Shown here one piece after another: positions 2,990 through 21,136 of a stretch of DNA of 64,000 bases (position 1 is its first letter; every line of letters begins with the position of its first letter). The notes below the pieces were generated by a model. It saw only the letters and a list, made by a program, of their open reading frames with translations. It was not told the DNA's origin and searched no databases. Origin of the DNA: Janthinobacterium sp. 61. Lineage in GTDB: Bacteria; Pseudomonadota; Gammaproteobacteria; Burkholderiales; Burkholderiaceae_D. Where the stretch lies: contig NZ_PJMQ01000001.1 of assembly GCF_002846335.1 (NCBI RefSeq), positions 5,456,001 to 5,520,000 of the forward strand, in the 5' to 3' direction. The translations under genes were made by a program, and so were the position numbers.

Positions 2990-3262
2990 ATGGCACATAA
3001 AAAAGGCGGCGGCACAACGCGAAACGGCCGTGATTCAGAATCAAAACGTCTGGGCGTTAAAGTCTACGGCGGCCAAGCTATCAATGCTGGCGGCATCATC
3101 ATTCGTCAACGCGGCACCCCAGTGCGCGCTGGCGAAGGCGTAGGCATGGGCAAAGACCACACCTTGTTCGCGTTGATCGCGGGCAAAGTGAAGTTCGTTG
3201 TCAAAGGTGCTGGCTCGAAGCAATTCGTGACCGTTGTACCTAACGCAGCAGTACCAGCGTAA
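2990..3262 (+). CDS. rpmA: 50S ribosomal protein L27
   Basis: A 90-residue protein starting [19 protein letters not shown], the typical bL27 N-terminus that reaches towards the peptidyl-transferase centre. The GGxIIxRQRGT block follows. A good Shine-Dalgarno (AAGGAG) precedes the ATG. No staphylococcal-type N-terminal cleavage extension is present. Confidence 0.98.
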
Positions 3263-3326
3263 TTCATCGCGGAGCGCCAGTTCGCTCCGCTGTGATCGCA
3301 TGATGTAAGGCGCAAGCCTTCAATCG

Positions 3327-3357
3327 AAAGGCTCTGCCCAAGGTAGAGCCTTTTTAG
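3327..3357 (+). terminator. Terminator/attenuator between rpmA and obgE
   Basis: AGGCTCT and AGAGCCT pair around a short loop and are followed by TTTTTAG. It sits after rpmA and just before obgE, so it may set the r-protein to Obg ratio. A second GC hairpin without a T-run (GCGGAGCG/CGCTCCGC, 3269-3290) lies just upstream. Confidence 0.65.
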
Positions 3358-4485
<1,128 letters not shown>

Positions 4486-16090: not shown

Positions 16091-16288
16091 GGTAGCTCTC
16101 CAAGACACGCGCAACTGGAACTGGAATAGTCGTCCCGCTTCGGCGCGTCCGGTTTGATCCCGCGCAAACGATGCGCGGGAAGGACGGGCTTTTTTAGCCG
16201 TCCGGCGCCAGCTGCCGCCATGCCCGCCGTATGGCGGCTGGTATGATGCTGGCCGTATTGCCCGTTTTTATAATAAAAGGATCGTTTG

Positions 16289-16573
16289 ATGGCGGATATA
16301 AATATAGTTCAGCAACATAAGCTGACAGCAGCAAAGGCGCGCGAAGCGGCACAGCAAGTGGCCGACAAGCTGGCCCAGGAATATGACCTGGTGTGTGCCT
16401 GGGATGGCGATGTGCTGCGCTTCGAGCGCAGCGGCGTCGATGGCTCGCTGACCCTGGAAAAAGAGCAGGCGCAACTGCAAATCAAGCTGGGCTTCATGCT
16501 CAGCGCCTTTGCTTCCACCATCGAAGGCAAGATTGCCGAGAAGATGCGCAAGGTGTTTACCGAGTCAGTTTGA
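16289..16573 (+). CDS. PHA granule-associated system protein
   Basis: A 94-residue protein starting MADINIVQQHKLTAAKAREAAQQVADKL, matching the polyhydroxyalkanoic-acid-system family, small proteins found in PHA-producing proteobacteria. The central part (WDGDVLRFERSGVDGSLTLEKEQAQLQIKLGFML) and C-terminal helix fit the family. AAAGGA lies about 8 nt upstream of ATG 16289. The biochemical role is not well defined; presence with phaZ supports PHA storage in this organism. Confidence 0.82.
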   Translation: MADINIVQQHKLTAAKAREAAQQVADKLAQEYDLVCAWDGDVLRFERSGVDGSLTLEKEQAQLQIKLGFMLSAFASTIEGKIAEKMRKVFTESV

Positions 16574-16633
16574 TGGCGTTTCACCCGCTTGTCTGGCGCC
16601 AAATTTGGTGCTAGGGAGCGTCTCGCAGTGATG

Positions 16634-16674
16634 GGCGAAAAGACGATGAAAACACGTCTCTTTTCGCCTTTTTT
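16634..16674 (+). terminator. Terminator after the PHA granule gene
   Basis: GGCGAAAAGACG and CGTCTCTTTTCGCC pair with one small mismatch around a loop and are followed by a T-run. Confidence 0.75.
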
Positions 16675-16728
16675 ACGTCTGACTGTACGTTAGCGAACAT
16701 TGCTATCACATTTCTACTTGGAAAGCTA

Positions 16729-16758
16729 TTGGACTTTAGTGCCTTTTTGCGTTATACT
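16729..16758 (+). promoter_or_regulatory. Predicted promoter of the proVWX operon
   Basis: TTGGAC (16729-16734) and TATACT (16753-16758) with an 18-nt spacer. It predicts a start near 16765 and a leader of about 390 nt before proV. The boxes are good but not perfect; osmotic promoters can also use other sigma factors. Confidence 0.5.
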
Positions 16759-16764
16759 TGAGTC

Positions 16765-17153
16765 ATATTTACAACAGCTACACCGCGTTTCACCTTCTGC
16801 TTCGCAGTACTCTCCGCTCGCTGAGTGGTGAATAATTCTTCGGGTTTTACACCCGCATCCAGTTAAAAGTAGCTTGGTCGATTTTTTCGGTCAAATACAT
16901 TTGGTGCCATGTATTTGCATGGCGCTAGCGTTGTTAAAAGTCCTGAACCACAGCCTCTTTTAGCACGCACACGGCACCCCGGCATCGGCTTTGGCCATCC
17001 GCTGGTCACACGCGTGTCACCCCCTGTTTACTGTCGCTCCCGTGCGCTTTTGCGCCGTGGCGTAGCCGACGCAACAGGGTTTGCTGATTCCCGCCGCAAG
17101 CTAGCAGCTTGCTGGGTTTCATTCCATTCGTCAAATCGAGGGAGAACCACATC
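16765..17153 (+). promoter_or_regulatory. Long structured 5' leader of proVWX (candidate cis-regulatory RNA)
   Basis: Directly visible pairings: an outer stem TTCACC (16789-16794)/GGTGAA (16827-16832) encloses CTGC/GCAG (16797-16807) and ACTC/GAGT (16809-16826), forming a compact three-way junction. Next is CGGGT/ACCCG (16841-16855). Then two mutually exclusive hairpins overlap: AAATACAT/ATGTATTT (16893-16916) and GCCATG/CATGGC (16906-16923). No convincing ORF fills the remaining 230 nt before proV. I do not recognise a known riboswitch class. A regulatory role is inferred. Confidence 0.45.
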
Positions 17154-18389
17154 GTGGCAAAACAAATCATTATCGACCATGTGTTCAAAGTGTTCGGCGA
17201 CAAGCCAGAAGAAGCACTTGAACTCGTCCGTCAGGGCGCCAGCAAGCAGGATATTCTGGCCAAGACCGACTGCACCATCGGCGTTTTCGACGCCACCTTT
17301 ACCATTGAGGCAGGCGAGATCTTCGTCATCATGGGCCTGTCCGGTTCGGGCAAGTCGACCCTGGTGCGCATGCTGAATCGCCTGATCGAGCCGACCGCCG
17401 GCCGCATTTTGATCGACGGCAACGACATCAATACCTTGCCGGACGCCCAGTTGCGCGCCCTGCGCCGCAAGGACATCAGCATGGTGTTCCAGTCGTTCGC
17501 GCTGCTGCCGCAAATTACCGTGCTAGACAACACTGCCTTCGGCATGGAACTGGCCGGCATGCCCAAGGCCGAGCGCCATGCGCTGGCCCAGCAAGCGCTG
17601 GAGCAGGTGGGCCTGGACGGCTACGGCGCCAGCTATCCTGACGAATTGTCGGGCGGCATGCAGCAGCGCGTGGGCCTGGCCCGTGCGCTGGCCTGCGATC
17701 CATCGATTTTGCTGATGGATGAAGCGTTTTCCGCCCTTGATCCGATTATTCGTACGGAAATGCAATCGGAACTGCTGCGTTTGCAGCAAATCAAGCGCCG
17801 CACCATCGTCTTCATTTCGCATGACCTCGACGAAGCCATGCGCATCGGCGACCGCGTTGCCATCATGAAGGACGGTCACGTGGTGCAAGTGGGCACGCCG
17901 GAAGAAATCCTGCGCAAACCGGCCAACGATTATGTGCGTAACTTCGTGCGCGGCGTCGATGCGGCGGCCGTCTTCAAGGCCAGCGATATCGCCCGCAAGA
18001 GCCAGATCGTGGTGTCGGAGTCGCCGAGCCGCGGCTCGCGCGCCGCGCTGTCGATGCTGGAAGAGCAGGATCGCGCCTTTGCGTATGTCGTCAATCCGCA
18101 GCGCAAGTTCCTCGGCGTCGTTTCGGCCGATTCCTTGCGCAGTGCGCTCGACGGCCATGTCGGCCCGCTGGGTCTGGCGCATGCCTATCTGCCCGACGTG
18201 CAGACCATCAATGCAGATGAGCCAGTCGCCGGCCTCTTTGGCCAGGTGGCGCAACTGCCTTACGCCGTCCCTGTGGTGGCCAATGACGGCAGCTTCCGCG
18301 GCGCCATCAGCAAGACAACTCTGCTGAAGTTCCTCGACCGCGATACGCCAGCCATTGCCGAGCCACAACAACAGAAAGGACAAGCATGA
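17154..18389 (+). CDS. proV: Glycine betaine/proline ABC transporter ATPase
   Basis: A 411-residue ABC ATPase: Walker [10 protein letters not shown], signature [15 protein letters not shown], Walker [15 protein letters not shown]-loop FISHDLDEA. The C-terminal region (about 280-400) resembles a paired-CBS regulatory module as in ProV/OpuAA, which senses ionic strength or nucleotides. The start is a GTG at 17154 behind GAGGGAGA; an in-frame ATG at 17109 would add 15 residues of poor likelihood. It is coupled to proW by a 4-nt ATGA overlap. Confidence 0.93.
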
Positions 18390-19495
18390 ACCCAAGCACC
18401 GTTTCCACAGTAGAACCTGTTGTTGAACAGGCCGCCCACATCAATCCCTGGGCGCTGACGCCGCCCACCGACGCCAGCACCGCGTGGCTCGATGCCGCCG
18501 CGCCTGCCGTGCAGCCGGAACAGGCGAGCGGCTTTCACCTGACGCAGATTTTCGACGGCTCGCTGCCGCTGGAAAGCTGGATCAACCAGGGCCTGGGCTG
18601 GGTCGTGGCGCATTTCCGCCCCTTTTTCCAGGCCGTGCGTGCGCCGATCGACAGCGTGTTGTCCGGCGTGGAAGGCGTGCTGCTGGCCGCTCCGTCGCTG
18701 ACGGTGATCGCCATCATCGGTTTGCTGGCATGGCAATTTACCAGCCGCACCCTGGCCATCGGCACCGTGCTGGCATTGCTGCTCGTCTCGATGCTGGGCA
18801 TCTGGCCGGAAGCCATGACCACCCTGTCGCTGGTACTCACGTCGTTGGCGTTCTGTCTGGCCATCGGTTTGCCGTTGGGCATTTTCCTCGCCAGCAGCGA
18901 CCGCGCGCAGAATATCCTGCGCCCCCTGCTCGACGCCATGCAGACGACGCCCGCCTTTGTTTATCTGGTGCCGGTGGTGATGCTGTTTGGTATCGGCAAT
19001 GCGCCAGGCGTGATCGTGACGATCATCTTTGCCTTGCCGCCGCTGGTGCGCCTGACCAACCTGGGTATCCGCCAGGTGCGTCCTGACCTGATCGAAGCGG
19101 CCCGCGCGTATGGCGCCTCGCCGTGGCAGTTGCTGACCCGCGTGCAGTTTCCGCTGGCCATGCCGTCCATCATGGCCGGTATCAATCAGTCGCTGATGCT
19201 GTCGCTGTCGATGGTCGTGATCGCCTCGATGATCGCCGTCGGTGGTCTGGGTCAGATGGTACTGCGCGGTATTGGGCGCCTGGACATGGGTCTGGCAACC
19301 GTGGGTGGTCTGGGCATCGTGCTGCTGGCCATCACCCTGGACCGTTTGACGCAAGCGATGGGCCAGCCGCGCCGTGGCGTGCGCCACTGGTATCAGACGG
19401 GGCCTGCCGGTTTCGTGCTGCGCCTGGTGCGCGGCAACGCTGCCAAGGCTGAAGCGAATGCCGCACAGCAAGCCACGCTTGCCAACGCACAATAA
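18386..19495 (+). CDS. proW: Glycine betaine/proline ABC transporter permease
   Basis: A 369-residue integral membrane protein. Roughly the first 90 residues are hydrophilic and Pro/Ala-rich, as in E. coli ProW. The permease core (about 95-330) contains the EAA loop [27 protein letters not shown] that contacts ProV. It moves betaine across the inner membrane under osmotic stress. The binding-protein gene follows 18 nt later. Confidence 0.93.
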
Positions 19496-19513: not shown

Positions 19514-20572
19514 ATGCATCAAATTGACAATTTTAAAGTGACGCAAAAATCGCAACGCAAGTTCCAGTTGTTTTCCGCCCTGGCGATCGCCGCCCTGGCC
19601 CTGACCACCAGCCTGGCCATGGCGCAGACGCCGGCCGTGGCTGCCGATGCGCTGCCCGGCAAGGGCGTCAAGGTGCAGCCGCTGCAAAGCTCGATCGCGG
19701 AAGAAACCTTCCAGACCATGCTGGTCGACAAAGCCCTGGAAAAGCTGGGCTATGAAGTGCAGCCGATCAAGGAAGTGGAGTACCCGACCGCGCATATCGC
19801 CATCGCCAATGGCGACGCCACCTTCATGGCCGTGCACTGGGACCCCATGCACAAGGATTTTTATAACAATGCGGGCGGCGACGCCAAGCTGTTGCGCACG
19901 GGCCAGTATGCCGGTCCGGCTGCGCAAGGTTATCTGATCGATAAGGCGACTGCGGAAAAGTACAACATCACGAATATCGACCAGTTGCGCGATCCCACCC
20001 TGGCCAAGCTGTTCGACCATGATGGCGACGGCAAGGCCGACTTGACGGGTTGTAATCCAGGCTGGGGCTGCGAAGCGCTGATCGAGAACCACATGGATGC
20101 GTACAAATTGCGCAAGACGGTGACGCACGTGCAGGGCAGCTATGCGGCCCTGATCGCCGATACCCTGGGCCGCTACAAGCGTGGCGAGCCGATCCTCTAC
20201 TACACGTGGACGCCGTACTGGGTCAGTGGCGTTCTGGTGCCGGGCAAGGACGTGGTCTGGCTGAAAGTGCCATTCTCGGCCAATCCGGACAAGGTGAATA
20301 CCCGCCTCGACGATGGCAGCGATTACGGTTTTGCCGTCAACACGGCGCGCATCGTGTCCAACAAGGCCTGGGCGGAGAAAAATCCGGCCGCAGCCAAGCT
20401 GTTCGAGGTGATGCAACTGCCGGTGGCCGATATCAATGCGCAGAACGAGCGCATGCGCCGCGGCGAAAACACGCAGGCCGATATCGCGCGCCATACGGCT
20501 GGCTGGATCAAGTTCCACCAGCAGACGTTTGACGGCTGGATCGCGCAAGCGCTGGCGGCGGCAAAAAAGTAA
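19514..20572 (+). CDS. proX: Glycine betaine-binding periplasmic protein
   Basis: A 352-residue protein with a signal peptide (hydrophobic core [17 protein letters not shown], cleavage after AMA near residue 37). Blocks typical of ProX/OpuAC are present: [33 protein letters not shown] and YYTWTPYWV; the aromatic residues in these segments (Trp in VHW, Trp in YTW) probably form the quaternary-amine cage. It delivers betaine to ProVW. AAAGGA lies about 7 nt upstream of the ATG. Confidence 0.94.
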
Positions 20573-20598
20573 GTTTGCAGCTGGGATAGGCGTAAAAA

Positions 20599-20628
20599 AA
20601 AGTGGCTACCGATTTGGTAGCCACTTTT
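20599..20628 (+). terminator. Terminator of proVWX
   Basis: AAGTGGCTACC-GATTT-GGTAGCCACTT, preceded by an A-run and followed by TTGCG. An 11-bp perfect stem directly after proX. Confidence 0.85.
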
Positions 20629-20665
20629 GCGTTAACGGCCTGTTTTGGTGGTTTTTGGTGAGTTT

Positions 20666-21136
20666 TCAGCCGTTTTCGGCCAGTTTCAGGTGCAAAATGG
20701 GGAAAGGCTTGCCGAACGGGTCGAGTTCGGAACGGCTATCCTCGATAAAGCCCAGATGGCGATAAAAGCCATGGCCTTGCGTGTTGTGCTCGTTGACATC
20801 GACGGCCGTGGCTCCCAGGCTGGCGATCGCGTACTGGAGCAGCGCGCGGCCGGCGCCGCTGCCGCGCTGGTCGGGATGCACGAACAGCATCTCGATCTTG
20901 GCGTGTTCGACGCACAGGAAGGCATAGGCGACGCCGTCATCGGCGCGCAGCACGTGCAGCAGGCGTTCGGCTGTCACTCTGGCCAGCTCGTCGCTCACGA
21001 AGGGCATCAGGAAGGCGATATCGCTGTCGTCGAGGAAATCGTGGGTGGCGCGTACGGACAGGTGCCAGACGTCGAACAATCGGGACAGGTCGGCGGCATG
21101 TGCCAGGGAAACCCTGGAAATTGGTGATGGTGTCAT
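20666..21136 (-). CDS. GNAT-family N-acetyltransferase
   Basis: A 156-residue protein with the acetyl-CoA-binding pyrophosphate loop in LFVHPDQRGSGAGRALLQYA and the C-terminal GHGFYRHLGFIEDSRSELD signature of GNAT enzymes. The substrate cannot be inferred. ATG 21136 (MTPSPISR) is chosen over an upstream extension that has no family similarity. TATAAT lies 6 nt before the ATG on the minus strand with no clear Shine-Dalgarno, so a leaderless message is possible. Confidence 0.88.
   Translation of the reverse strand: MTPSPISRVSLAHAADLSRLFDVWHLSVRATHDFLDDSDIAFLMPFVSDELARVTAERLLHVLRADDGVAYAFLCVEHAKIEMLFVHPDQRGSGAGRALLQYAIASLGATAVDVNEHNTQGHGFYRHLGFIEDSRSELDPFGKPFPILHLKLAENG

Follow-up and report, generated by a model that had tools for sequence, protein, structure and literature searches.

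How bacteria convert their osmotic state into the expression of proU/ProVWX is a long-standing question. Published post-transcriptional control of this operon concerns Escherichia coli, as far as the available parts of the reports go (PMC10656529, PMC4067347). According to sections of the first of them, the E. coli proU mRNA contains a conserved structure (+203 to +293) that is cleaved by RNase III under low osmolarity (PMC10656529). The nearest RNA proposal that we found in the literature is the proX motif of Spiribacter, for which the accessible sections of the report give 17 unique representatives, in which a sequence on the motif's P2 stem occludes the ribosome-binding site (PMC8632094).

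Here we describe the leader of the proVWX operon of Janthinobacterium sp. 61. It was studied within a window of 64 kb, by which we mean the whole stretch of DNA that was analysed. The leader is predicted to fold as a row of hairpins (P-1 to P7). Its conserved RNA structure is tied to proV, and the sense strand folds better than the antisense strand. No account of this leader was found in the open PubMed Central literature, a scope that leaves aside preprints and the majority of subscription papers.

The proVWX operon and its promoter region

The operon comprises the genes proV (17154 to 18389), proW (18386 to 19495) and proX (19514 to 20572), all on the forward strand, which were identified by the NCBIfam models NF007480 (ProV; 527.9 bits, cutoff 444), NF008196 (475 bits, cutoff 439) and NF008334 (522.3 bits, cutoff 215), respectively. 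The GTG start codon of proV at 17154 is preceded by the ribosome-binding site GAGGGAG at 17138-17144. Further upstream, at 16286-16573, lies a PHA_gran_rgn gene (putative polyhydroxyalkanoate system), after which a stem GGCGAAAAG/CTTTTCGCC followed by a T run was seen by eye at 16634-16675; the loop of this stem is longer than our terminator scan permits, and the scan omits it. No tRNA was found in the 64-kb window.

Leaders were compared in three genus groups, Janthinobacterium (g1), Duganella/Pseudoduganella (g40, the Duganella group) and Massilia (g18). The set of 47 leaders consisted of 17 of the 35 Janthinobacterium leaders bearing P3, 19 leaders of the Duganella group, corresponding to every proV orthologue found there, and 11 of the Massilia group, namely 10 matches of the P3 covariance model R1 and the leader of G126. 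Removal of 11 near-identical leaders left 36 for non-redundant counts. All counts leave out the leaders of the genus groups g12 and g33, which look different; the proV locus of G107 gave no usable start.

A sigma-70-like promoter was located on the forward strand at 16730-16758 (TGGACT, 17-nt spacer, TATACT), its -10 box covering 16753-16758. It was the one site found by a scan for promoter-like sequences, compared with 0.5 expected in shuffles, and suggests a transcript start near 16765. In 47 of 47 leaders a -35-like hexamer sharing 4-5 of 6 positions with TTGACA accompanies the best-scoring -10-like hexamer, a count for which the script takes the best site per leader and which hence is no chance-corrected test. 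The initial annotation had noted a plausible promoter and about 390 gene-free nucleotides before proV. This is borne out: about 389 nt between the predicted start and the GTG codon contain no gene, and relatives keep this stretch. Across 38 aligned leaders, conservation was seen in the promoter and in the bases transcribed first, and the 5′ 80 nt were variable; several stems changed their sequence yet stayed paired. A transcript start downstream of 16923 had been named as an argument against the leader; the conserved promoter, and with it the predicted start, sits upstream of the structure.

Directly upstream of the -35 box we recognized an operator-like block (16702-16726, forward strand) with the by-eye consensus CTAGCACATTTC-N5-GGAAAG. 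Within at most 72 nt upstream of the -10 box, TANCAYR occurred in 28, TYC-N4-6-GRAW in 24 and both together in 22 of the 36 non-redundant promoters, all of which are raw counts not set against a chance background. This block is a candidate operator of a transcription factor. In G404 its second half forms a 6-bp inverted repeat, TTCCAA-A-TTGGAA.

Predicted fold of the leader

For the 5′ part of the leader, a three-way junction had been proposed in the initial annotation, in which an outer stem (16789-16794/16827-16832) encloses hairpins at 16797-16807 and 16809-16826. The first of these, a small hairpin CUGC/GCAG on the forward strand (helix 16797-16800/16804-16807), is plausible with a pair probability of 0.59-0.61 and is retained mainly as sequence, as judged by eye in 24 5′ regions. 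The second did not hold in its register (probability 0.00-0.02); P-1 at 16814-16828 is predicted to form in its place, with the helix 16814-16819/16823-16828 (0.62). Of the 27 non-redundant leaders whose upstream sequence was long enough, 26 gave at least five pairs in one stem-loop domain with an energy below -5 kcal/mol at the P-1 position, the exception being G170. Its mean z was -1.91, 22 of the 27 leaders lying below -1 (z of single hairpins was anchored by position and determined in non-redundant leaders). The outer stem reached a probability of 0.15-0.21 and was recognizable by eye only in the closest Janthinobacterium among the 24 5′ regions. The junction as a whole, with an outer stem probability of about 0.2, was 1.7 kcal/mol worse than the best alternative and is not supported.

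The next hairpin of the initial annotation, 16841-16855, is our P0 (GGGYY..RCCC; helix 16841-16845/16851-16855), which is conserved and has a pair probability of 0.90-1.0. It was located in 47 of 47 leaders by a search pattern that itself demands G-rich and C-rich arms; in G133 its placement relied on a limit set on the position. The outer three pairs were kept in 36 of 36 leaders and the inner pair in 33 of 36, including changes from C-G to U-A; the mean z was -1.98 (36 leaders). P0 is followed by P1 (16875-16893, helix 16875-16881/16887-16893). P1 showed changes on both sides at 7 of 8 counted pairs, the cells of the 23 leaders analysed being paired to 90.1% in the outer and to 75.8% in the inner half. 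P2 (16902-16927) is a helix of 11 bp, 16902-16912/16917-16927. It encloses, as its core, the previously listed stem 16906-16923, which was conserved and predicted with a probability of 1.0. In the same 23 leaders, 90.6% of the P2 cells were paired and 4 of 10 pairs had changed on both sides, the mean z being -3.26 (24 leaders).

It had also been claimed that this stem and a hairpin at 16893-16916 exclude each other in the manner of a switch. The 7-bp complementarity at 16893-16916 exists and does exclude P2, but a switch at equilibrium is not supported: its energy is -3.7 kcal/mol compared with -16.7 kcal/mol for P2, its pair probability is 0.00, and P2 outweighs it by 13-15 kcal/mol. In the alignment 79.7% of its cells were paired, a value as high in 0 of 500 column shuffles, and its covariation score was reached by 4 of 500. 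As P1 and P2 already constrain these columns, the evidence is not clean, and we attribute the signal to the sharing of columns. A transient co-transcriptional fold of 16893-16916 is conceivable.

P3 (16928-16969) is the best-conserved element of the leader. It consists of the helices 16928-16930/16966-16968 and 16933-16940/16957-16964 and an apical one, 16943-16945/16951-16953, and its internal loop (AGUC-CUG...CAG-CYUC) is nearly invariant. The covariance model R1 of P3 gave 64.3 bits in the source genome (E 1.4e-11). Downstream, P4 (16973-17018) was taken from the consensus fold, with a closing stem GGCAC/GUGUC and a moderate mean z of -0.98 (32 leaders). P5 (17022-17079) has the closing stem CCCUGUU/AACAGGG, predicted with a probability of 0.93, and an inner stem UGUCG/CGACG; its mean z was -1.04 (27 leaders), and by eye it is absent from the shortened leaders of the Duganella group. 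P6 (17085-17121) contains several pairs changed on both sides in the consensus of 17 leaders and is weak in energy (mean z -0.25, 36 leaders). Altogether, P4 to P6 are only moderately better than shuffles. P7 (17123-17143), a weak hairpin over the Shine-Dalgarno sequence, was predicted with a pair probability of 0.60-0.70 and -6.6 kcal/mol. It had a mean z of -0.89, with 19 of 36 leaders below -1, and is absent or altered in several Massilia leaders. All hairpins are on the forward strand.

Taken together, the initial annotation was right in assigning a long structured leader to proVWX, but its fold and extent were partly wrong, and P3 lies just outside its interval (16765-16923). Some of the pairings that it listed are kept in relatives (P0, the core of P2), whereas the junction's outer stem and the register of one inner hairpin found no support. 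Its claim of a new regulatory RNA stands with regard to a conserved structure, as indicated by compensatory changes, the position upstream of proV in 56 of 57 matches of the P3 model and the lack of an Rfam match; the regulatory role is a candidate one.

Covariation and folding energy

Compensatory changes were studied on P1 to P3 in 23 diverged leaders from the three genus groups, which were picked for having P0, P1, P2 and P3; G387, G404 and G319, in which P3 is present and P1 or P2 is missing by eye, are omitted from this set. In the MAFFT alignment 89.9% of the cells were paired and 18 of 33 pairs showed changes on both sides. There were 68 cells changed on both sides, compared with 23.4 in shuffles, 0 of 500 of which were as good, the shuffle control not preserving relatedness. 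Slid registers gave 33-48% paired cells, a control that leans towards the structure because this was read off the same sequences. The excess over both controls is large. For P3 alone (24 sequences, 22 distinct) 96.1% of the cells were paired; six pairs were changed on both sides versus 3.0 in shuffles, a number reached by 2 of 500, and the covariation score was reached by 0 of 500. The consensus fold of 17 leaders comprised 77 pairs, 24 of them with a change on both sides that kept the pair. When folded singly, 23 of the 23 chosen leaders gave three tandem hairpins at P1 to P3, with small register shifts. Judged from these alignments, P1 to P3 are conserved by compensatory mutation in leaders of Janthinobacterium, Duganella, Pseudoduganella and Massilia.

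Folding of the 47 leaders yielded a mean z of -3.1 on the sense strand (60 shuffles per leader) versus -1.5 on the antisense strand (30 shuffles per leader), and on the sense strand no shuffle was as low in 29 of 47 leaders. P3 had a mean z of -3.77 (32 leaders), and the shortest leaders of the Duganella group gave z near -1. In the leader of the window, none of 200 shuffles folded as well as 16765-16935 (z -3.2), and none of 100 as well as 16765-17180 (z -3.9). Leader pieces of 200 nt (z -2.7, -2.6 and -1.5) were unexceptional compared with 240 random 200-nt windows from the same 64 kb, whose 5th percentile was -2.9. Energy alone is insufficient, and the strong evidence for structure is covariation, not folding energy. 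Among the random windows the strongest folding was observed at 20477-20676 on the reverse strand (z -6.25) and at 3205-3404 on the forward strand (z -5.21).

Distribution and modular composition of the leader

The leader DNA matched 33 of 40 genomes of the genus and 13 of 145 sampled genomes of the family. Orthologues of proV (E ≤ 1e-180) were found in 19 of 74 genomes of the second genus group. With R1, 57 of 392 genomes of the family were matched, each of them once: 35 of Janthinobacterium, 11 of the Duganella group, 10 of the Massilia group and one of another genus. Of these 57 matches, 56 are proV leaders, each with P3 upstream of proV. For the weak match in the other genus (G080, E 0.035), the 2 kb of sequence analysed contained no proV, and it was treated as a chance hit. 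Five of 40 genomes of the Janthinobacterium group lacked an R1 match. In a search of 399 genomes of the order, R1 matched the source genome only, under stricter filters which lose weak matches.

A strict DNA pattern of P3, which fixes the loop length and misses variants with shorter loops, was searched in 84,980 species. It matched 32 stretches, confined to four genera of the Oxalobacteraceae: 18 of Janthinobacterium, 6 of Duganella, 3 of Pseudoduganella and 5 of Massilia. proV starts 125-211 nt downstream in 29 of them; the remaining three end before proV and correspond to G327, G165 and G319, where proV follows. Viral contigs contained no match to this strict pattern.

P3 is missing from 4 of the 19 leaders of the Duganella group and from the leader of G126 of the Massilia group, and thus is not essential. 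By eye, the Duganella-group leaders of G233, G245 and G247 (201-202 nt) retain P0, P3, P4 and P6, that of G263 (163 nt) retains P0, P4 and P6, and those of G040, G120 and G284 are devoid of P3 and P4. This gain and loss of hairpins in the Duganella group speaks for independent modules and against a single compact fold. In the shortened leaders L084, L086, L089 and L097 of the same group (163-202 nt), promoter, P0, P4 and P6 are kept by eye, with or without P3. Such leaders are natural deletion variants usable for experiments. In the genus group g33 (L058-L061, L078-L081) proV is also located behind a long upstream stretch with hairpins of other sequence, and in two stretches a TATAAT-like promoter was seen by eye; this is possibly an analogous or distant leader.

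Expression signals within the leader

At the gathering threshold, neither the window nor 10 related loci contained a match to Rfam release 15. A group II intron match on the other strand of 16560-17200, obtained at a relaxed threshold, was at chance level (14.2 bits, gathering threshold 49). No leader peptide was shared across the 47 leaders, 37 of which have no start codon preceded by a Shine-Dalgarno-like site and opening at least six codons. The other ten carry 11 candidate sites; four of these (G164, G165, G156 and G168) are situated 68-74 nt before proV and have differing start codons, and the remaining ones are at scattered places. An open frame at 16909-17376 was rejected as a leader peptide; it is not kept in relatives, as G165 carries a 2-nt deletion in P2. 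The only terminator-like site, within P6, was at chance level (1 found versus 1.1 expected). As no leader peptide is shared and a terminator is found only at chance level, translation, decay or Rho are the remaining routes.

Two long-range pairings were analysed in 31 leaders by partner-swap permutation. For the P3 loop with an arm of P6/P7, 614 of 1000 permutations were at least as good, and for the 3′ strand of P3 with the Shine-Dalgarno sequence 996 of 1000. At 37 °C the predicted accessibility of the Shine-Dalgarno sequence was lower in three Janthinobacterium leaders (0.15, 0.16 and 0.15), G281 (0.02) and G399 (0.10) than in G106 (0.34), G404 (0.53) and G389 (0.61). From 5 to 42 °C it rose from 0.05 to 0.18 in G000 and from 0.31 to 0.62 in G389, the largest rise, and fell slightly in G106. 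From the gene order, the initial annotation had suggested that osmolyte, ions or temperature may be sensed. With regard to an RNA thermometer, the eight leaders showed no sharp predicted melting step between 5 and 42 °C, the rise being only gradual.

Discussion

With somewhat better than even confidence, we regard the leader as a lineage-specific, cis-acting structured RNA for the post-transcriptional control of proVWX, in which P7 masks and P3 serves in docking or cleavage. As we infer it, transcription would start at 16765, the leader would be regulatory, and the single steps would be as follows. The leader would limit the expression of proVWX after the start of transcription. The ribosome-binding site would be held in P7, and the hairpins, above all the internal loop of P3, may be where a protein or nuclease docks or cleaves. 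Relief would come from the osmotic state (ions, crowding, nuclease activity), by analogy with the E. coli proU mRNA. Against masking by P7 speak its weakness, its loss or alteration in several Massilia leaders and the accessibility of 0.34-0.61 in three of eight leaders.

Alternatively, the array of hairpins may be a processing element of RNase III or RNase E that mainly sets the half-life of the mRNA. The strong helices of P2 (11 bp) and P3 (12 pairs counted, main stem) are in line with this explanation, but a typical RNase III substrate comprises two helical turns, and each helix of the leader is shorter. In the parts of the reports at hand, cleavage by RNase III lowers the amount of E. coli proU mRNA at low osmolarity (PMC10656529; the effect is also cited in PMC4067347). 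The E. coli structure, however, is at another position, and its likeness to the leader is one of description. We regard a mere processing element as possible, if rather unlikely.

The context of betaine uptake genes and the nearly invariant internal loop of P3 might also indicate a true riboswitch, in which P3, together with P2 or P4, would bind a small osmolyte or an ion and alter the access to the Shine-Dalgarno sequence; in the accessible sections of PMC8632094 a candidate riboswitch before a proX gene is proposed in Spiribacter. This explanation is unlikely. The hairpins are tandem and independent and, by eye, freely gained and lost, P3 occurs only before one gene in one family, and the negative permutation tests revealed no covarying alternative pairing between an aptamer and the Shine-Dalgarno sequence. 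We are equally doubtful about an osmotic-state RNA sensor, in which P3 would bind an osmolyte or ion, or a dedicated reporting protein, and by way of the neighbouring hairpins would free the masked ribosome-binding site of proV. If true, this sensor would represent a new class in the uptake of compatible solutes, built from exchangeable hairpin modules, and binding of a ligand or protein to P3 would be a new RNA-based control of this uptake. The chance that the leader is a sensor of its own class is a minority one.

That the hairpins are a passive stabilizer or spacer, shielding the 5′ end from decay and regulating nothing, would fit their modular gain and loss, seen by eye, and the fact that P-1 and P1 stay paired despite very different sequences. 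It is quite unlikely, since P0 and the internal loop of P3 have kept not only their pairing but also their sequence. Rho-dependent attenuation in the C-rich leader, which folding of the RNA or binding of a protein would relieve, is still more doubtful. All 47 leaders contain more C than G (mean C/G 1.33, 1.48 and 1.42 by genus group), possibly as a feature of Rho utilisation, and the available part of PMC10656529 reports that E. coli proVWX P1 transcripts undergo Rho-dependent termination. However, the C/G bias is modest, its figures come from proV leaders alone, and Rho sites would be masked in strongly paired RNA. That a G+C-rich spacer folds by chance, to which the unexceptional single-sequence folding of 200-nt pieces could point, is scarcely credible in view of the compensatory changes in P1 to P3 (0 of 500 shuffles) and the three tandem hairpins in 23 of 23 chosen leaders.

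Returning to the leader as a cis-acting structured RNA, its covariation, its defined core P3 and the natural deletion variants of the Duganella group offer a testable system in environmental bacteria. It resembles the riboswitch and leader families of Rfam in being a structured, covarying mRNA leader and differs from them in giving no match at the gathering threshold; as judged by this search it matches no known RNA family, and structured cis-acting leaders as such are already known. With the Spiribacter proX motif (SRC-29-1) it has in common that an RNA is predicted before a gene of a glycine-betaine transporter and that the ribosome-binding site is possibly occluded; the motif belongs to another lineage and another gene, proX, and is set apart by its description in the accessible part of the report (PMC8632094). 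proU of E. coli and Salmonella is the same operon, and a conserved RNA structure is likewise located close to the 5′ end of its transcript. For E. coli, the available sections of PMC10656529 describe osmotic control at the post-transcriptional level, as proposed here. They place the E. coli structure between +203 and +293 of the P2 transcript, whereas in Janthinobacterium a leader of about 389 nt upstream of proV is predicted to carry up to nine or ten hairpins.
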